Assembly: GCA_002104985.1 (NCBI GenBank)
Contig: MCGO01000016.1
Span: 581,310-645,309, forward strand
DNA length: 64,000 bases
DNA from: Rhizoclosmatium globosum
Taxonomy: Eukaryota > Chytridiomycota > Chytridiomycetes > Chytridiales > Chytriomycetaceae
Direction of reading: 5' to 3'
Of the stretch, positions 37,599 through 56,900 are shown one piece after another; positions within the stretch are counted from its first letter, which is position 1; each line of letters opens with the position of its first letter. The translations under genes and the position numbers were made by a program. The notes beneath the pieces are model-generated. The model was not told the origin of the DNA, did no database searches, and saw nothing but the letters and a program-made list of their open reading frames with translations.

Positions 37599-37680
37599 GA
37601 CAACGTGGCCGAGCGGTTAAGGCGACAGACTAGAAATCTGTTACTCTCTGAGTGCGCAGGTTCAAGTCCTGCCGTTGTCG
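37599..37680 (+). tRNA. tRNA-Ser (AGA anticodon)
   Basis: An 82-nt class II tRNA. The acceptor stem GACAACG (37599-37605) pairs with CGTTGTC (37673-37679), with discriminator G at 37680. The D arm contains GGCCGAGCGGTTAAGGC. The anticodon stem ACAGA/TCTGT encloses the loop CTAGAAA with anticodon AGA at 37632-37634. A long variable arm (CTCTCTGAGTGC) and a T arm GCAGG TTCAAGT CCTGC follow. No intron is present. The long variable arm and anticodon define serine (UCU codons by standard pairing, UCC by inosine). Confidence 0.97.
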
Positions 37681-44839: not shown

Positions 44840-46773
44840 ACAATGCACACCAAAGCATCCAAGACCCACTCGCTTCAGTTCACGCACATTCTTTCAGCAT
44901 TCACATCAATTGCATTTATTATCTGGATACTCTGTGTTGAAAACCCTAATACGGCAGTAAAGCAAGGTATGTTTGTCTTGTGAGCCACTCTCAACTGACA
45001 CTCTTCACACCAGATCTTTTAAACAACAAACCAAATCCGCCAATCTCGTCTTTCTGTCCCCCAAACCGAGCCACTGATTCCACCGCCCTTTCCCTCTCAC
45101 TCTGAATCCATATCCAACACTTCCAAGTCTGATTACCAATTCCCGCTTCCAAACTCGGCTCTTCTTTCGCACCGCCGTTGCCCATCTTTCACACGCAATC
45201 ACATTCAAAACTGTCTCGTTTGATTCGTGGCGTGCTGTCCCGCCGCCTCCAACTGGACCCGATCCAGTCCACGAACCCTTTTCTCTCGTTGCATGCTTTC
45301 CTGAGGACGCGTTCCCCTTGGTGCATAAGACGCTGAAGAAGACGGTTGTGAATCGGTATTCGCTGTTGTTTGAGTGGACGGGTTCAGATGTCGATGCGGA
45401 CCCCAATTCTGTTGATGGCGCATCAGGATGTGGTTCCGTGCTTCCGGAAACGATTGAGTTTGTGGACGCATCCGCCGTTTGAAGGGGTTGTGGATTGGGA
45501 GGCGGATAAAGTGTTTGGGAGGGGGAACGGCGGATGTGAAGCAGACTCTTGTGGCGCAGATGGAGGCGGTGGAGTTGTTGATAAGGGAGGGGTTTCGACC
45601 GAGAGCGACTGTCTTTTTGGCGTATGGGCATGATGAAGAGATTTCGGGGTGGCAAGGGGGCGAACAAGATTGTGGAATATATGGATGCAGAGTTGGGACT
45701 TGCGGGTAAATAGGGTTGATTGTGGATGAAGGGTCGGGAATTGGTATGTTTGAAGGTGTAAAGACTGCGTCTGTGAGTGTTGGAGAGAAGGGGTGAGTTT
45801 GTTTGAGTTACATTGAAATTCATGTGCTGACTGTTGTATAACAATCCAACTAGGTACTGCGACGTTGATCTAATTGTCGAAACTAAAGGAGGTCATTCCT
45901 CAGTCCCACCAAAACACACTGCGATTGGATTTATGGCTTTAGTGATCGCAGAACTCGAAAAACAACCCATTCCCCATTTCTCTCCCAGACCACAACCCAC
46001 TCCTCGGAAAAATGAGATGCTATGCCGCGCATTCCGAGAATCCAAACCCCGATATCGTCGACGCCATCCAAACATGGCCTAAATCTCGTTCATCCCTTGC
46101 AGAACTGTTGGCTGCGAAGGATGGAACTACATACTCTCAATTAACCACTACACAAGCCGTTGATATTATTCAAGGGGGATTGAAAGCGAATGCCCTCCCT
46201 GAACGTGTGGTAGCGACTGTGAATCATCGTATCGCCGTTGACTCGTCTCTGTTGTTGGTTCAAGAGCGGTACCTTTTCAGTTCTGGAGAGCGTTGCAACA
46301 GAATTGAAGCTGAATTTCACGCTATATGGGTTTAAGAATCGGACGCAGGTTATTGCTAAGGTCGGAACAAGTGACGCTGTTGGACACCTGATTGTGCAGC
46401 CCCGTCCCTTTGGAATCGAGCCTGCCCCCGTGAGTCCACATCTTGATTTGAGTGATCGGGGGTGGAGGGTTTTGGAGGGGACTATTCATCATATCTTTGA
46501 TGGATTAAGTGATACGGGTCGTGTTGTGGTCGTGCCGTCGCTTCCGACGGGGAATACGGATACGAAACATTATTGGAGAATGTCAAGAATATTTATCGGT
46601 TTGGTGAGTATTATTTGTGGAAGTGGTCCAAGATTAATGGAATCTTTATTTGGATAGGGCCGGGTGGTGGTGGCCGGGCTCATACGGTCGACGAGTTTGC
46701 GTATTTGTCGCGGTTTTTGGATTCTATCAACTTTTGGCATGAGTTGATTCGGAACTGGGATTCCTCTTTTTAA
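44840..46773 (+). CDS. M20 zinc carboxypeptidase (CPS1/PM20D1 type), copy 2
   Basis: A second M20 gene. ATG at 44840 opens MHTKASKTHSLQFTH, and a signal-anchor segment (ILSAFTSIAFIIWILCV) follows. The catalytic part keeps the same landmarks as copy 1: PPPTGPDPVHEPF, VVNRYSLLFEWTGSD, ILLMAHQDVVP, WTHPPFEGVVDWEADKVFG, GTADVKQTLVAQMEAVELL, FLAYGHDEEISGWQGG, VETKGGHSSVPPKHTAIGF, AVDIIQGGLKANALPERV, a glycine-rich AHTVDEF and a final HELIRNWDSSF. At least three one-base breaks fall in 45400-45460 and more at 45500-46330, so the reading frame is not open as given. All catalytic and metal-binding motifs survive, which argues for sequence errors over decay, but a recent pseudogene cannot be excluded. 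The gene ends 190 bp before the transposon's target duplication. Confidence 0.75.
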
Positions 46774-46963
46774 GTATGTTCCACAGATTTGTTTACGTTT
46801 CTGTTTTCTTTTGTAGAAATATGAAAACGAACCTTCTCAGAAGCAGAGCACCTTGAGTGAACATGGTGCACCATCAATAAAGGACGAGCATTCACTTTTA
46901 AAACCAGGTTATTTACACAGTCAACCGACAACGCGATGCGTATTATTTATCAAAACAAACTCA

Positions 46964-46971
46964 AAACTTTC
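46964..46971. repeat. Target-site duplication, left copy (AAACTTTC)
   Basis: The 8-bp word AAACTTTC directly abuts the left terminal inverted repeat. The identical word in the same orientation abuts the right terminal repeat at 52023-52030. Confidence 0.93.
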
Positions 46972-46993
46972 GGCTCAATCACCATACCGGACC
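46972..46993 (+). repeat. Left terminal inverted repeat
   Basis: 22 bp starting GGCTC and containing ACCATACCGG. It pairs with 52001-52022 at 19 of 22 positions; the mismatches are at positions 6, 9 and 20. Confidence 0.93.
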
Positions 46994-47071
46994 TAAATAG
47001 GTCGACCAATCAGATTGTTCCACAATTACGTTCTTAGGTCCACCAATGACATCACTCCGCTAAAAATTGAG

Positions 47072-50000
47072 ATGAAACAACAACAGACTCCCAAGACAAC
47101 CAAATCGAAACACGGCGGAGCTCGGGAAGGGGCTGGTCGCAAGAAGGCTCCACTGCCTGCAGGTCAATTGAAATTGGATCTTGTAACATTCGGCATTAAA
47201 CGAAAAGAGCCAATGAAGTCACCCACTTTGCCCGAGTCACATGCTACAAACAGTCACAATGAAACGAATGCAGATGTCGGAGACAAGGATGTGGATGCAA
47301 ATGTCCTGGTTAGTGTTTTGCGTTTTACCACTGCAATCAAAGCTCTAACAAACAACAGTTTAATCAGCCTTATTCGCCACTTGTTATTCGAACCGTTAAG
47401 AACGAATCATTTACTGGCAAAGTCTCTCAGTTCATTGACGGCGATGGAAATTGTCTCTTTCGTTGCTTGTCATGGTTCGTGCACAAGGGAGATCAATCCC
47501 ACCACCGTGATATCCGTCGCAAGATTGTTGGTCATTTTCGAAAGCGCTCAAACGTTTTTGAGAGACTTGCTGCTATTGATAATATGTCATTAGATGATCT
47601 ATGTGCGAAATATGAAACTAATGGAGAGTTTGGGGACGAGTACTGCCTAGCCTCCTTCTGTGACCTTTATCAAATGGAAGTGACGGTATTCTCGAACATA
47701 AATACTCAGTATCATGTGACTGTATTCACGCCACAAGCTCGACCAGCTTCTTACATGAAAATCTCACTGCATCTAAGTGTGTCGAGCGACCACTATGAGG
47801 TTGTTTTAGACTCAACGCAAGAGTTTGAGACAGCGCCGACTGTCCAAATGTTTCGAGCTATGTTCCAGCAAGCGATGAAGGAGATGGCGAAGATGACGAC
47901 GATGGTGACTCCGACGACGATGAAGATCATGCTTCAAATAATAGTTCAACAACTCGAAAACGATTTATTCATCGTACTGATCCAAATGGTGCCTATCTTA
48001 CTCAGGTTTGCGCCGCTGTTCGGAGAGGAGATCATGATGCACAACTGAAACTTGGAAACGTCCTGATTCTTCCACCAGACCCAGTTTCTAGCTTGCGAAA
48101 ATCTGTTCTTCGGGGAGGAGACTATAGCCCAGAGTTCTTCTTGTACTCAAATCTGGTTGTTTGCAACCCATATTTGACATGTGACGAATCCAATGTTGTA
48201 TGCCCAAATTGTAATAGCAATAATACGCGACAATCTGGATATTCTGAGGAGCCGCGCCGAATTTATGGAATCAACGGACTTATTTACTATTTGTTGGCTG
48301 CACGGTAAGCCTTCCTAAATTCTTACACACTAATCTAAACCTGTTGCAGAGGAACGTGTCAAGATTGTAAACATAAATTCAGAACTACCAACGCAGTCAC
48401 AATCTCGAAATTACTTCTACATTATCAGCCAAAGTTCAATCAAACTCTTACCAAGCGCGCTGGTGTTGACGATGAACTGGTTTTTCTGTTACGGAATGGG
48501 CTCTATCAAGGACTGGGACCGGCAGGTGTCCACTCTCTTCAACGACAGAAAGCAACTTACCGCCACTCGCTCTCTGAACTGCAATACTACTCTGTTGTAG
48601 AATCCTTGATGGTGCAGTCACGAACTCAGCCGTCTGTTTCAATGAGAAAAGTTATAGATCCAAATGATATTCCGCCGTTTCCATCATTCACAAGCCCGGA
48701 TTATGACGGCGGATACCCCTCAATCAACTATTTAAAGAAGATCCTCGTCAAAGATAATTTAAAGCGTCGAGACTGGCTTGATTTTGAGGTTCAACGTAGA
48801 AGTGGGACAGTTCTTAGTATTGATCATTACTACAAGGTAGTGTCTTCAATTTTTGGAAATAGGGGCTGATTGTTGATTTGGTTAGATTTGTAAACATCTG
48901 GCTCCAATCAACGGCCACAGACTCTTCAAAGCATTATTCACAGCTAAGAATGAATATCGCGAGATTCGGTTGCAAGCACTAACACAGTCTTCTGGGCACC
49001 TTGATTTGATTCCATTGTTTCGGAGCCATGAGAGAACTCGAGAGTACTTTGGATACAGTCCTATTACCCTAGTCTACACTGACAAATGCTGCTCTGATCG
49101 CTCATTTCTACAGTCAGTTCTGGAACAATCGCTTCCTGTTGGAACGGCGGCAAAACCGCTGCTTCCCTTGCCTGATAATCCATTATGTGTGCGACTTCTT
49201 TCCACTGAACGTCCAACGGAAATTACAACTGCTTTAGCCCGAATTATTCAGCACATTCGAAGTCTTCCAAACAGTTCTCGAATGCCTCTCGGATTGGACA
49301 CTGAATGGAAGGTTGGTCCCCGTGGAAAAGAAGGGAAAATCCAGCTTCTGCAGCTGGCTATAAAAGAAAAGCTGTTGAATGACGAATCAGAGACAGAATT
49401 GATCCTTTTGGTGGTGTTAAAAGACCGCTTTGATTGGCCACCATACCTTAAAGAAGTCGTCGAATCGCCGAAAACCTTAAAAATTGGAAGTCGGATTGTA
49501 GCTGCAGACTTTAAGTATTTGAATGAAGATTGGGGTATTCAGCCGCGCTCTCTGGATTCTGCTGATATTTGCGATACGGGCCATCTGTGCAAGAGAAAGG
49601 GTTTCGTTGAAAAAGCAAATGCGTCTCTGTCAAAGTGTTGTGCAGCTGTTTTGGGATATTGTTTGGATAAGAGTGATTCAGTTCGCTGTTCAGACTGGTC
49701 AAAGCCACGTTATTCTCAGCAACAAAAAGACTACGCAGCAAGGGATGCTTGGGCCGGACTGTTGATATATTTACAGTTGCAAAACGCTGTTGACACTTCA
49801 TTTTCTCGCCTTGTTCTGCCGACAACAGTGCCCGAACCCAAGTTCTGGAAAACGATTCAGCTGGGACAAGTGCGGATAGTCTTTTTCGCCAACTGCTGGA
49901 GGTAGAAAATGGTGTGACAGTTAAATTGGACTCTGTTCATGGAATGATGCGAATTGAGTTGCCCAAAAAGCATCCGATGGCTGGAGTGTTTGCAAAAAAA

Positions 50001-51857
50001 CTTCGTGATGCAATATTCATCTTAAATCCAGAAGATGTGAAACGGGTAGACGAGTATCTCAGAACAAAGGGGACAACATTTGAAGAAGAGCTGTTGAGAA
50101 ATCCAGATTGGTGTCTTAAGCGAGTTCGGCGAAGTATTCCCTCGTCAGACATTTTGTATGACCGGGTGAACGAGTTACTTATAGAATTTAGTCTGGATTC
50201 TTACAAGGATGAAAAAGGAGTTCCACTTTTGAGTGCAAAAGCAAAGAAGGATATGAAAACGTTGCTCAACGACCATATAAGGAAAGGATGTTTGAGCGAT
50301 CCAGCAGATTTTCCTCTCTACACAAAAATAGGAGATGATAAAGATGGTCTCCCACTTTATGCAACATTTCGCGGTACTAGGTATGTGTTTGTGTAGAAAC
50401 AGCGTTGACTTAACACTTACTAGTGATGTTGAATCCTTCCATCAATTACTGGAACAAATCTTTTCTTCAATGAATTGCAGTCCAGAGTTTATGGATGCAG
50501 TTCTTTCTCAGATACGACATGTTTTCAATATTCGAGCCAGTGAACGGAATCGACCAGGTTTTCCAAAAATTGGACACTATGAGCATTATATGATTGATGC
50601 TATTAATGAGATAACGTTTCGAATATACGGTATTTGACCTTCAGCTTAAGTTATGTATCATTAATTCTTATGCAGGAAACCCATTCACAAGTGGTGGACA
50701 GTTACGTCGCTCTTTCGCCCGACTTCTGAAACCTTTGGCATTATCCCGCATCTGCCTGAAGAAGAATGGGAGCCTGTGACAGAAAAGGACGTTGAAAGCT
50801 ATCCTCGGGATTCCTTGCTCTTCGGACGAAGTGTCTTATTCCCTACCTTCCAGTTCATACGCCAGCAGAATGGCGGTTGTTTACACAAAATTTGTCTTTC
50901 TACGTTGGAAAAACTGCGGGAGGCTCAAGCTCAAAGTCGGGACTTGAGAATATCTGGACTGGAATTCAGGCAAATTACCTGTTTGTCCAAAAGCACCCAC
51001 AATTTCTAAAGAATTTATCATTACAAGGAAATTGGAAGCACATTTGGAGGATGCTCATAAGGTCGGTGATTCTTGGTTCTAAATCTTGCTCAACACTCCA
51101 TTTACAGGTGTTGCTCAAGCGGCTCCAACGTAAAGACCTTATGAATAAGAACAAAACTGGAATGAGTTCTCTTGACGATTCACTCGCACGGTTTTCGGAA
51201 TTGGACTTCCCGTATCTAGCTGAATTTGACGGAGCTGAGATTGGTCCATTCCGAGTTATATTCGACGAGAATCTCGTAGATTCAGACAGTGACACGGAGA
51301 GTTATGTTACTGCGGAGGAGCCCGTTGGCGAGTTTGAATTTGACACTTTGCCGCAAGTTCTCCAGAATGCAGTCAATATTTCATTTCAGCCGCAACCAGC
51401 TGCCACAGTGTTTTTACCTTCCTCAAATAGTACCTTGGCTGTACCTTTCGGAACATTGCCCATTACCACTCCTCAACCTGCCACAATTCTTCCGAAAAAG
51501 CCTCGAAAACCACGTACTTGTCAACGATGCGAGCGGCAAAAATGCGCTGGAGTTTGGAAACAGTCAAAATGCGATTTTGTGAAACCAATTTCCACAAAAA
51601 CTCCAACGATTCGGAGTATAACTCAGCGAACATCAATTCCCGCGTTGTCAATAGATTCAGCTGCTCTCGATGCGAAAATTGAATTGTTTAACGATTCAAT
51701 GCACGGGCTATATGGAAATGGTGATGGAATTGTTTGGGATCCAGCACGTTCGGAACAAGATTTGCATTATGCACGAACCCTTTTTTCTGCTTCAAACAAT
51801 ATCATTATTCAGCTTTGGATTGAAAAATTTATGGCTGCGCGTAACAATGAAGAATAA
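47072..51857 (+). CDS. OTU protease - zinc ribbon - DDE transposase-like - DEDDy exonuclease protein
   Basis: The single gene of the transposon. Order: a basic AT-hook-like start (KHGGAREGAGRKK); an OTU cysteine-protease domain with FIDGDGNCLFRCLSW (D-G-N-C) and SDHYEVVL (His); an acidic linker; a zinc ribbon VCPNCNSNN...GTCQDCKHKF; a DDE-like core with VLSIDHYYK (D1), LFKALFTAKNEYREI and LVYTDKCCSDRSFL (D2); a 3'-5' exonuclease with GLDTEWK, SRIVAADFKYL and YAARDAWAGLLIY (DEDDy residues intact); then RGTSDVESFHQLLEQIF (candidate third acid E). A Cys cluster (CQRCERQKC) and a C-terminal tail end at 51857. Introns with good signals include 47309-47357, 48305-48349, 48837-48885, 50379-50422 and 50630-50684. 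One-base breaks lie near 47840, 49845 and 50880. Domain calls rest on motifs; the DDE reading is inference. Confidence 0.85.
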
Positions 51858-51889
51858 AGTATTTGAAAATCTCTTGTCTGATGGTATGC

Positions 51890-51990
51890 AGCTTCCTCCT
51901 TTTCCTCTCTTCTCTTCTCTTCCCTCTCTTTTCTTCCCTTTCTTTCCCTTTCTTCCTCTTTTCTTTTTCCTTTCTCCTTTTCCCTTTTTC
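51890..51990. repeat. CT-rich tract near the transposon's right end
   Basis: About 100 bp of almost pure C and T on the plus strand, between the stop codon (51857) and the right terminal repeat (52001). It may be the 3' untranslated region or subterminal sequence of the element. Confidence 0.85.
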
Positions 51991-52000
51991 AAGTTGGCCC

Positions 52001-52022
52001 GGACCGGTATGGTAATAGAGCC
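52001..52022 (-). repeat. Right terminal inverted repeat
   Basis: 22 bp ending GAGCC and containing CCGGTATGGT, the inverted partner of 46972-46993. Confidence 0.93.
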
Positions 52023-52030
52023 AAACTTTC
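52023..52030. repeat. Target-site duplication, right copy (AAACTTTC)
   Basis: Perfect 8-bp direct repeat of 46964-46971, immediately outside the right terminal inverted repeat. Confidence 0.93.
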
Positions 52031-52055
52031 CAGCAAATCTCTCTTTTGGCAAAGG

Positions 52056-53650
52056 ATGAACACAGTTTGTACGTTGTGAACGCCGCCCAGTCTTTGAACA
52101 CGTAGCTAATTGTCGCTTAACATTCGATAAGGTGTTGGAGTCTGTGGCGTCTGTGATGGCATTATCAACAACGGCGATCAATGTATCTTCCATCAGGGCG
52201 TCTCATGTCACTTGAAGTGTCCCAAGAGCCAATCAAGCAACAACATGGACTTGTTCGACGATCTAAACAGTGTCTTAATTCAGGCATCGACTGGCATTCA
52301 GCAATTTCAAGGACAACAAGGACAACAAGGACAACAAGGACAAGCGGGGCCATTGATCCAAACTCAGCTATTCGACACTCAGGCTGGTGCGATCAACGCC
52401 TCGTTTGCTTCCAACCAACAACTGCAGTCGATGCAAAGGCAACAAGTGAGCCAGCAAAAGATGGTACCAGGTCCTGCATCGTCTCATCCACTGCCGCACC
52501 AAAGTCAAAGTGGCCTATCACAAGCTGTGAGTATTTCCTCTGTCTCCGCAACCTTGCTTAAACCCTAAACCCTAACCCAGTGACTCTAAACCTACCGAAG
52601 TACTTGATGCCTCCCAGACTCTTGTTGCTTCTGCACCAGCTAATTTTGAGCCACGGGCTGAGGGGAAAGCCATGACCATTGATGATTCGTCGATTACAGA
52701 TGACGTATTGAATGTACCCTTGCAATTGGTGAACAAACGCCTTTCAAAAGTAGAGCGGAGCCTGTTCCTGGAAGTGATGTGTATATATATCACATCCAAA
52801 AATTGGGAGACGGCAGCTTTGGAACCATATACGCTGGATTTTATGGAAACACTCCAGTCGCTATCAAAACCTTCAAGCCGCATCCTGCCGGTGCTGGTGC
52901 TGTGAGCAAAACTGGGGTGGCAGAGGCGTTGAAGGAGGCTTCGATTTGGCTCTCTCTCAGACACCCGAATATTGCTATTCTTTATACTTTTGCTCACGAA
53001 GAGAATGGATATCCAATCCTTGTGATTGAGCGATTCCAGATGGATCTCTTGCAGCGGTTGCATACTGGTACCCCACCGACCCTTGTAGAGCGTTTGAATT
53101 GGCTTTTGGATATTGCTTATGCGTACAAATACCTGCACACACTGGAGTCGCCAGTCTATCATCGGGACCTGAAACCAAACAATGTCTTGCTTGGTAAGGT
53201 TTTTTGGATTGGATTTTCACTAAAATTTTTTTTTCTCGTCCAGATGCAAATGGAAGAGCCGCGATTGCTGATTTCGGAATGAGCAAAGTACACTCAATGT
53301 ATGCGTACAGCAAGCAAAGGCAGCCGAAGATCGGGCATTACGCGTACGCTCCACCGGAATCGTTTATTCGAGGATACAAAGTTGCATCTGGGTACGATGT
53401 GTACAGTTTTGGAATGACGATGTATGAGGTTCTGGGTCGCTTAGCTCCGTTCAACAATGTGGCAAGGGATCCGCAAACTGTGATCCAGTTAGTTAAGAAT
53501 GGGGTACGACCTACTAGGGAGGAGACTGTTGATCATATTTCGGACGAGTGTTGGGCACTGATTGATGAATGTTGGGCTCAAGATGAAACTGCTCGACCAG
53601 ATTTTGGGACAATCTGTGAGATTATCACACAAATTATTTCAAAGCAATAG
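52056..53650 (+). CDS. Zinc-finger plus TKL-type protein kinase 1
   Basis: Exon 1 (52056-52068, MNTV plus one base) is spliced over 52069-52131 to a zinc-finger-like segment VCVGVCGVCDGIINNGDQC...FHQGVSCHLKC. A Q-rich region with a GQQ microsatellite follows, then an intron (52527-52580) holding telomere-like repeats, a linker with EVLDASQTLVAS and a kinase domain from about 52778. Kinase motifs: LGDGSFG glycine loop, VAIKTF lysine, [12 protein letters not shown] catalytic loop, IADFGMSKV, YAPPES and a closing helical lobe ECWALIDECWAQDETARPDF. The intron at 53194-53243 splits the catalytic loop from DFG at the same place as in the other two kinases. The family is TKL-like; the substrate is unknown. 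A one-base phase error lies around the 52527 intron. The transposon ends 33 bp before the start codon. An AATAAA lies at 53675. Confidence 0.85.
52311..52343 (+). repeat. GGACAACAA coding microsatellite
   Basis: Between three and four 9-bp units encoding repeated GQQ in the linker of kinase 1. Confidence 0.9.
52559..52578. repeat. Telomere-like repeat at a kinase intron 3' end
   Basis: TAAACCCTAAACCCTAACCC, a mix of CCCTAAA and CCCTAA units, forms the pyrimidine-rich end of intron 52527-52580. The acceptor CAG directly follows. Confidence 0.88.
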
Positions 53651-53723
53651 ATTAAGTCAAAAGCATTTTTTGTGAATAAATGTTCGATTTAGGTTCTGAT
53701 TTTTTGAGAAAGGCCTTAAAAGC

Positions 53724-53885
53724 ATGAATCAAATACCCGACAGTGAGATAACTGTGTCTAACATTGTAGTAGGAAGAGGTGCTTTGGAACTGTGTGGTGA
53801 ATATCCAAAGCTTATCATAGAGCGCTTCCAGCGTAATCTTGAGAGTCGGCTGTACTTAAGAAACTTGGTCGAACATTTCTTTTGA
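53724..53885 (+). pseudogene. Truncated TKL kinase remnant
   Basis: A 53-codon open frame. The first part, MNQIPDSEITVSNIVVGRGA, matches the N-terminus of kinase 3 (PFIEITVSDVSLGSGS). It then jumps directly to GEYPKLIIERFQRNLESRL, which matches the post-hinge segment of kinase 3 (DGYPCLVIERFQRTLHNRL). About 60 residues, covering the rest of the glycine loop, the lysine strand and helix C, are missing, and nothing of the catalytic loop follows. This is most simply a dead duplicate with an internal deletion, lying between kinases 1 and 2. Confidence 0.7.
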
Positions 53886-53981
53886 TGTGTTTCTATTGTC
53901 AGTAAGTGGGAAATTGACGCTTTCAGCAAAGAGTTTGTTGGTGAAGAGAGAAAAGTTTAGCCTCAATTTAACAGGATCAAT

Positions 53982-56900
53982 ATGGCTGAAGCAGGCAATG
54001 GTAAGACGGATCAGTCTCTCAGCAAGAAGCTAACTCGGGCTGTCTTCTCACGACTGATTGTTATGATTAGGACAATGCGGAATCTGCCAGCTGAATCTCA
54101 ATATCATGGGTGAAGATGCGACTGTCTATGACGGCATCGCATATCACATTCAATGTCTCACATCGATTAATCAGTCTCATGTTGGAGAGACTGCTTCGGA
54201 ACAAGTCCACTCCGGGCCGTCTGAGCCGACCAACTTGAACTTGGCCAACTTCGTTTTTTCTTTTCAAAGACCACCACAAACAGTCCCTTCCACTCCGCCT
54301 CAACTTTTGCTTAATCCACTGCAATATCAATCAGAAGCAGTGGGTGCATCCGATGGGATGCTACCTCCAAGTATGCGCCCAGACTTAATGCAACAATTTG
54401 AGCAAGAACAATTTGTACCAAACCCAGCGAGTTCCTCCCCCGAATCAGCTACTTCAATGAATGACAAGCCTAAGGTACGTATTATATACTACGCTTTTTC
54501 GTTCACATACAGAGTGATGCTTCTCCCCTCCAGTTTTTCAAAATGAAGAATGCAATCAAGAAGAACAGTTCTGAAACTTACCCCGAGAACAACCCACTTG
54601 TCGCCTGCGAAGTTTGTGCAAAACTCTTCAAAAAGTGGTGTACAGGCCAACGCAACTTCAGAACTTATCATAAGAACATCCATGCGTGCAAAAACGCGCC
54701 GGGTACAGATCCGCCCGTATTTCATGGAATTCACATGGATGATTATATAAAAACCTGGGAATATTCGGTGGGGTGTGGACTCCCTCCTCCTGTTCTCATT
54801 CCAAATCAGGCAATTTTGCCACCTACTCCACCCACATCCATACCGACCCCAGTTATGGCTACGTCTTCTTCCTCATCTGCTTCGTTTCAAAGCAACATGC
54901 AGTGAGTTGATATGGCGATGTACTATTTTTTAAATATTGTTTAGGGGAAACACGAACTGTGTCGATTACCCGTCGTGCTCGTTTTGCAGATGTCGCTTAT
55001 CTGGGAACCATTTTTTGCGTCTGAATATCATGATGAATAACAGACAATCTGTGATGGAGATTTGTCCCCAGCGCAAAGTTCGCCACCTGAGAGACTCGCT
55101 TTTAAATGGCCAGCGCCCAGAGATTAAAATCCACTGGTGGCTGATACATCGAACTACGAATGGTACTGAAAGATATCTGGAGCAAACATACGACGATTTT
55201 ACTTTGCATCAAGCTAACATTCGTACTGGCGATACAATTTCTGTAGAATTTAACTTTAGCGCAGGTGGTGCTCGGGAAGAATCAGACTATGAAGGAAGTA
55301 CTGATGGCGATAATGATTCAATGTTGGCGTCGGTGTCTGAAGTTCCAGTCCGGACTATTCTTGATGGTGGTGAATTCAAACCGATTCAAAGGCCATTGAT
55401 CCACACGGACGAGGCTGCTAAGTCCTATGAACGAGAGCTGCCGGACTTATCTACTCTAGCAATTTCGAATCCAAGAACGTTGCAGTTAGTGTTACGATAT
55501 TCTTCCTCCGCTATACTCAATTCCAACCCATAATAGAGTCAAATTCAAGCCAGTTCAAGATGCACTAGATAAACATGCGATTCAGATTTCGACTGGACAA
55601 ACTAAGAACAAGTTACTTTTGGGAGACGTTGCTCAGATTCCATCAAGTCAGATGTTGTCACTTCAACTTGACGACACGTCTGCCGCTTCCGCAATTTCGT
55701 TGGATGCAAAGCTGATCAAAGTCATCAAAGAAGGCAAAGCACTCGAGGCAATACAACCCAAATCAACTTCTGTACCTACCAAGGATACGAATCCAAAGGC
55801 TGTAAATGTTTTTGATGCCGCCAAGACACTTTTTACGCTTGAATCTAGTTTGTCTGATACAAAGGTCCAATCGACTCCAGCGATTTCAAGGAAACCTGAA
55901 GTCTTGAACGTTTTTGATGCTGCCAAGACTCTTGTTGCTCTCGAATCCAACATGGCTGATCTGACAATTCAACCCAACGTTGTACCTAAAACTGTGGAAG
56001 ATAGGGATAAGGCGCTCCATTCCGTCGGAACAAGTTTGCCATCGAATTTTGACGCATATGCGGTGGGAAAAGAGATTGCTTCACTTGAATCGGACTCAAT
56101 TGACTTGAAGGCGCAGCGCAATTTGATTCAGACTGGAAGGGAAGTTGTGAATGTTTTTGCTGCACCAAACCTCACAGGTTCAACCGTTCTCAACCAAAGT
56201 GGAGTTTTGCAAAGTGTAAGTTTATATTTCAAGTTTAAGCTACTTTGTTTGTCTTGTTCTTTTATTAAGCCGTCCGTCCCTTCCAGGATTTTACCTACAA
56301 CAATCCTGATACGTCATATAAAAGTCAGCCCACAATGTCAAAAACTGCACCATTACCTTCGATCTTGCCGTACTCTCGTCCGAATCCAAGTCCAAGTAGT
56401 CGTCCACAAAATTTTTACGCTGAGGAACTTCCTGAATATGTGGGTGAATTTCCTTTGAGCTTGTCAGTATTTTGTCTGAAACTATGTGCTTTAGTTCCAT
56501 CCTTTTACAAACACGGTTAAAACGTCAAGTAAGAGGAAGACAAACTTGACAGAAGCCGATATCCATCCTCCGAAAGTACGGCTATATGCATGCATTCTAT
56601 GTGCCGAAAAGAAGCAATATAGTCTTATGCAGGAAAACAAACTTCGCAGCCATTATGAAGAATGCCATGGTTCAGCTGGAAAACAACCTCAACCGTCAGG
56701 TCCCCCATCTTTTCCTGCCAACTGTAAAGATGATTACAGCGATGCATGTGAATTTGCTACAAAGCATGGTCTCGATAATCCCATACTTCTTGATGTGGAT
56801 TTAGTGAAAGGTCCGCAAACACCTGATGAGTCCAACTTGGCTTCTTTATCAATCCAGTCATCTGCGCTTCTGAGAACGACACCAACTATTTCGCCAGTTA

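Follow-up and report, generated by a model that had tools for sequence, protein, structure and literature searches.

Dada elements are DNA transposons whose DDE transposase possesses a DxxH motif, an N-terminal CCCC zinc finger, and a C-terminal CCHC finger (PMC3706591). The published families are notable for RNA-gene targeting; where ends have been defined, they lie inside small RNA genes, with target-site duplications (TSDs) of 6–7 bp and no reported terminal inverted repeats (TIRs), the latter statement being made for the Dada-U6 and Dada-U1 families, and with an 8-bp TSD not ruled out by the authors for Dada-U1 (PMC3706591). In the Dada members of Laccaria bicolor and Ectocarpus siliculosus, the only two for which an exonuclease is reported there, a DEDDy exonuclease is situated between the second catalytic aspartate and the DxxH motif, and these members are given no target name in Table 1 (PMC3706591). 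Here, we describe a 5051-bp element from the chytrid Rhizoclosmatium globosum, located in a 64,000-nucleotide stretch of contig MCGO01000016.1 (positions 581,310 to 645,309; hereafter, the window), which is probably a cut-and-paste DNA transposon of this exonuclease-bearing Dada branch, as judged from its sequence. Most likely, it represents a variant of Dada that has TIRs and an 8-bp TSD, gives no indication of targeting RNA genes, and encodes a fused OTU protease-like domain. The defined ends of exonuclease-bearing members would help to show whether Dada targeted RNA genes from the outset or acquired this habit later.

The transposase and its placement in Dada

The placement in Dada is suggested because the architecture of the encoded protein matches the published one: a CCCC finger, two aspartates, a DEDDy exonuclease, DxxH, and a glutamate. 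The original prediction held the element to be apparently undescribed and recognized no named superfamily in its terminal sequence or protein architecture, a view that is only partly right and is unsupported as it was worded since the transposase carries published Dada features, including the position of the exonuclease (PMC3706591). Among the literature matches listed, none concerned this particular family, Dada elements with TIRs, or a Dada protein fused to OTU, and a Repbase entry may exist.

The transposase gene lies on the forward strand at 47072–51857 of the window. Its seven exons were carried over from a second full-length copy, on contig C301, and their coordinates, worked out by hand, are 47072–47308, 47359–48304, 48350–48836, 48886–50380, 50424–50629, 50676–51061, and 51108–51857. 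In the C301 copy, the predicted gene model has seven exons, introns of 43–50 bp, 1506 amino acids, and no internal stop. A third copy, on C409, encodes a protein of the same length, P0001, which is the deposited 1506-amino-acid protein BCR33DRAFT_772567.

All of the features that follow lie on the forward strand. Near the N-terminus is an OTU-like cysteine protease domain (47440–47800) with DGDGNC and SDHYEV motifs (Pfam PF02338 in P0001, E = 2e-7), for which the best solved relatives are OTUD3 (E = 7e-4) and OTUD1. It is followed by a DUF6729 region with a CxxC...CxxC pattern (48138–48683; Pfam PF20499 in P0001, E = 4e-10). The N-terminal CCCC finger of P0001 comprises CPNC at residue 361 and CQDC at 398, upstream of the first aspartate at 553; the corresponding published Dada residues are C389, C394, C429, and C432, with D567 (PMC3706591). 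The predicted first catalytic aspartate, D553, is placed approximately at 48823–48825 by motif alignment, and the second, D623, is predicted at 49081–49083 from motif alignment and a structural model of a Siphonaria relative. A WRN/RNase D-like DEDDy 3′–5′ exonuclease domain (49231–49791; Pfam E = 2e-12 in P0001) is inserted in the DDE domain, between the second aspartate and DxxH, as in the fungal and algal Dada branch. Motif alignment locates DxxH (D906, H909) at 49929–49940 and, together with the Siphonaria model, the predicted catalytic glutamate, E1059 of an RGTxxxE motif, at 50431–50433. Finally, a C-terminal zinc knuckle, CxxC-x4-C-x8-C, is encoded at 51519–51572.

The order of these motifs, from CxxC..CxxC through both aspartates, exonuclease, and DxxH to the glutamate, is conserved across the aligned relatives. 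The first aspartate is present in 26 of 27 rows (the partial row P0006 has a glycine) and the second in all 27, while DxxH and the glutamate occur in every one of the 25 rows extending that far. The two aspartates are separated by 69–78 amino acids among the aligned rows; the published spacing for Dada-U6_DR is 68 (PMC3706591). A DDE triad with DxxH between the second aspartate and the glutamate is thus recognized by motif only, and a secondary-structure order that fits it is seen in the AlphaFold model (mean predicted local distance difference test score, 79) of a Siphonaria relative with 61% identity: strand-strand-strand-helix-strand-helix, the exonuclease, a strand leading into DxxH, and a later helix carrying the glutamate. 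The residue matching D553 sits in a predicted strand of this model.

In its DDE domain with DxxH, N-terminal CCCC finger, C-terminal finger, introns, and DEDDy exonuclease position, the element resembles the Laccaria and Ectocarpus Dada members; unlike them, it has defined termini with TIRs and 8-bp TSDs and an N-terminal OTU domain, a domain that goes unmentioned in the main text of the Dada paper (PMC3706591). The core motifs and their spacing are also as published for Dada-U6, Dada-U1, and Dada-tRNA of fish and Perkinsus, families that differ in their 6–7-bp TSDs and RNA-gene targets (PMC3706591, PMC8869645).

Several observations weigh against this placement. Membership in Dada rests on a comparison with published features rather than with aligned Dada proteins, and in row P0027 the RGT around the glutamate is unrecognizable. 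Four cysteines make up the C-terminal finger, one of them in place of the third-position histidine of the Dada CCHC finger. The window, C301, and C409 copies and the short derivatives have TSDs of 8 bp, rather than 6–7 bp; the ends bear TIRs (19 of 22 bp here, and GGCTC TIRs again in a second family on contig C41), where none would be expected; and no RNA gene has been recognized at the insertion sites. The Foldseek and VIA match lists were filled by exonuclease-containing proteins and are, therefore, uninformative on a discontinuous DDE domain; far down the Foldseek list were weak matches to a TnsB transposase (E = 0.17) and to OTU structures (E = 0.5–0.6). In addition, no Pfam transposase family was matched by P0001 (E ≤ 0.5) or by exonuclease-removed cores of P0001 and P0003 (E ≤ 5).

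These same Pfam searches bear on other superfamilies. The combination of an 8-bp TSD and short TIRs could indicate a hAT or P element, as TSDs of approximately 8 bp (PMC3706591) and a common C/DxxH motif (PMC8869645) are found in these groups, but neither P0001 nor the two cores matched a hAT or P family at the thresholds above, and the architecture of zinc finger, exonuclease, and DUF6729 also argues against this very improbable assignment, which was rejected on the Pfam results. Zisupton (KDZ) elements likewise generate 8-bp TSDs (PMC12730594), and no KDZ match was obtained at the same thresholds. KolobokD, a Kolobok lineage of DDE transposons with C/DxxH, is similar in encoding a DnaQ-fold exonuclease (PMC9587614). 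Its exonuclease is of the DEDDh type and its TSD is TTAA (PMC9587614), however, whereas the element described here has a DEDDy exonuclease between the second aspartate and DxxH and 8-bp TSDs without TTAA; KolobokD was rejected on both counts, and there is almost no chance that the element belongs to it.

Ends, copies, and empty sites

The element occupies 46972–52022. Its left TIR, with the GGCTC end, lies at 46972–46993 on the forward strand and agrees at 19 of 22 bp with the right TIR at 52001–52022 on the reverse strand; both are directly adjoined by the TSD AAACTTTC, at 46964–46971 and 52023–52030, respectively. Re-examination, therefore, confirmed the coordinates, 5051-bp unit, 19/22 TIRs, and abutting 8-bp repeats of the original prediction. 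Under a uniform-base model with 2000 × 2000 start and end combinations, approximately 1.5e-7 such TIR and 8-bp pairs would be expected, and chance repeats were rejected on this basis. The pair also ranked first among exact 6–9-bp duplications with terminal repeats in a scan of window positions 45001–54000, with starts upstream and ends downstream of the gene.

The R. globosum genome (56.9 Mb in 420 contigs) yielded 17 DNA matches to the element, including that of the window. One, on the homologous contig C79, is the same insertion as in the window; C301 and C409 carry full-length copies with the TSDs GAAATTTC and AAAAACTC, respectively; the copy on C92 is without approximately the first 1.3 kb (5′ part); C24 carries a relative at 67–72% identity; and the remaining 11 matches cover the left end only. 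Using a 19-bp end with up to two mismatches, 33 genomic matches were found (17 forward, 16 reverse; 9 exact), a count that includes haplotype duplicates, while the reversed, non-complemented end, used as a control, gave none at up to two mismatches.

Short derivatives of 0.80–0.82 kb share 76–78 bp with the window element at the left (87–90% identity) and 62–68 bp at the right (79% identity), and full-length copies would be expected to mobilize them. Eight such loci were measured and represent five distinct sites, since a single TSD is common to four of them, which are allelic or segmental duplicates; the two TSD copies match at 8/8 bases at three of these sites and at 7/8 at two. At a further derivative on C405 (L046), the flanks agree at 6/8 positions, and the derivatives on C362 and C410 were excluded from the count, as one end only was present in the stretches read. 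Short derivatives also occur in inverted pairs approximately 8–10 kb apart (C68:17436/27277, C79:618083/627924, and C326:1500/9860). The one TSD common to the four measured of these six paired loci suggests an inverted segmental duplication.

An allelic empty site is seen for the C301 copy. Its joined flanks match contig C364 continuously at 99% identity, with one GAAATTTC at the junction, indicating that the insertion is polymorphic between haplotypes and young; the left flanks of the two contigs differ by 10 substitutions in 1000 bp and the right flanks by 7 in 600 bp, along with a few gap columns. At C409 (L040), the element and another repeat with a GGCTC end sit back to back, one 8-bp AAAAACTC separating them, and no clean empty site was obtained from that query because the left flank is itself the end of that repeat. 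A similar arrangement has been described in zebrafish, where back-to-back Dada-U1A and Dada-U1B insertions are split by one TSD (PMC3706591). For the window copy, both haplotype contigs (C68 and C79) are occupied and no empty site was seen, the joined window flanks not having been searched. The element is identical on these two contigs (5051/5051), although the aligned flanks differ by approximately 2%; the differences begin approximately 25 bp from the left end, and no difference occurs within the first 100 bp to the right. This identity could reflect gene conversion or a shared assembly of repeat reads.

Taken together, the copies with other 8-bp duplications, the derivatives, and the allelic empty site of the C301 copy establish the family as a recently mobile DNA transposon. 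The recent insertion that had been proposed is, thus, borne out for the family, and of the evidence anticipated for it, further copies with different TSDs and short, internally deleted derivatives were both found, with an empty allele found for C301 and none for the window copy. Occupation of the window locus on both haplotype contigs would agree with a domesticated host gene lying between chance repeats, but the distinct flanking sequences and TSDs of the C301 and C409 copies, the empty C301 allele, and the short derivatives leave that explanation with next to no probability.

Target sites, relatives, and the case for a separate superfamily

The TSDs are AT-rich, with 50 of 64 bases being A or T at eight sites (the left-hand copy being counted where the two differ), against a window AT content of 56% (binomial tail, 2e-4). 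At Rfam gathering thresholds, no RNA gene was detected at the window, C79, C301, C409, C92, C41, or the five derivative sites, where genes split by the insertion could escape Rfam, nor at the intact empty site L049. Three tRNAs were found (Rfam, ARAGORN), lying more than 1 kb from the element at C409 and 9 kb from it in the window, where the tRNA gene (82 bases, 37599–37680) is not the target.

Protein relatives were found in Siphonaria, Boothiomyces, and the mushrooms Ephemerocybe and Leucocoprinus, along with other sequences; a profile search, in which the best 7994 candidates were scored, returned three chytrid proteins, and a scan of viruses yielded one stand-alone exonuclease locus and no transposon. 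The OTU domain was seen in P0001 and, partly (E = 0.056), in a truncated Siphonaria protein. No precomputed OTU domain was present in any of 22 relative proteins, and none was found in the R. globosum relatives on C41, C400, and C157 (eight open frames scanned, in which first exons may be missed).

The C41 relative, a single copy in the genome, encodes a protein 32–35% identical in three stretches; its 4692 bp end in GGCTC TIRs and are bracketed by an 8-bp duplication, AAAAATAG (C41:70473-75165). Its ends and TSD indicate that GGCTC ends and 8-bp TSDs are not peculiar to one family, a rule that rests on two families, which are few. No contiguous allelic empty site was found for C41; the repeat hosting the insertion is, however, also present at C13 and C357, there with a single AAAAATAG. 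Further diverged Dada-like genes are present at C400:164338-167706, C157:406687-409467, C192, C223, and C383. A terminal-repeat scan found no ends for the C400 relative and only a right end for that on C24, and for the C157 relative, a 9-bp TSD and a 14/20 TIR are possible but not counted as established. In a tree of 28 proteins, the two OTU-bearing sequences cluster first with C41 (support, 0.95) and next with P0003 of Boothiomyces and with P0004 (1.00), while C400 and C157 group with the two mushroom proteins (0.99).

Together, these data raise the possibility of a superfamily in its own right, placed beside Dada, hAT, P, and MuDR as their sister, that shares the common DxxH-type DDE core, follows TIR and 8-bp TSD rules of its own, and would include the Laccaria and Ectocarpus “Dada” members. 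The TIRs and 8-bp TSDs found in both of two families whose proteins are as divergent as described above, the lack of a recognized small RNA gene at the sites examined, and the Laccaria and Ectocarpus members listed without a target name in Table 1 (PMC3706591) all speak for such a group, but the zinc finger positions, spacing of the aspartates, DxxH motif, and exonuclease position all fit the published Dada description, and we regard it as unlikely. It is no less speculative to suggest that the exonuclease-bearing fungal and algal “Dada” form a superfamily of their own, defined by a proofreading-type, WRN-like exonuclease inside the catalytic domain of a DDE transposase, GGCTC-type TIRs, AT-rich 8-bp targets, and no RNA-gene targeting, in which one chytrid branch added an OTU domain that would shield the transposase or influence repair under ubiquitin control.

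Proposed mechanism and condition of the window copy

As a member of the exonuclease-bearing Dada branch, the element would transpose by a cut-and-paste reaction catalyzed by the DDE site. The transposase may bind the GGCTC ends through its zinc-binding regions, and the RNase H-fold DDE site would cut the ends and, with a stagger of 8 bp, join them to target DNA rich in AT. Trimming of 3′ ends could be carried out by the built-in WRN-like exonuclease during excision or joining, a role that has been proposed for the Dada exonuclease (PMC3706591). The OTU domain, in turn, may deubiquitinate the transposase itself or host factors involved in repair or silencing; ubiquitin removal has been discussed as a role for the OTU domains of Ginger1 (PMC2836005). 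Ginger1 and some animal Helitrons resemble the element described here in joining an OTU cysteine protease domain to a transposon protein, but their transposases are different, and the domain is C-terminal in Ginger1 and N-terminal in the R. globosum element (PMC2836005). With a 3′–5′ exonuclease inside its catalytic domain plus an OTU domain, the transposase offers a testable case in which the roles of both domains in end processing and host interaction are open to point mutation.

The gene in the window had been described as full-length and transposase-like. It is indeed full length, but its reading frame is broken by small deletions. The copy carries six of these (1, 1, 1, 1, 7, and 4 bp), and all but one lie in exons. 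Between 47842 and 50952, three of the four single-base deletions fall exactly at sites that differ between C301 and C409 (47 such positions among 5066), and the remaining one coincides with a difference in the C92 copy; no such coincidence is seen for the deletions of 7 and 4 bp. The single-base deletions look like consensus errors from pooled repeat reads, rather than true decay. Downstream of the element, at 52556–52580, the window also contains short, telomere-like CCCTAAA/CCCTAA repeats.

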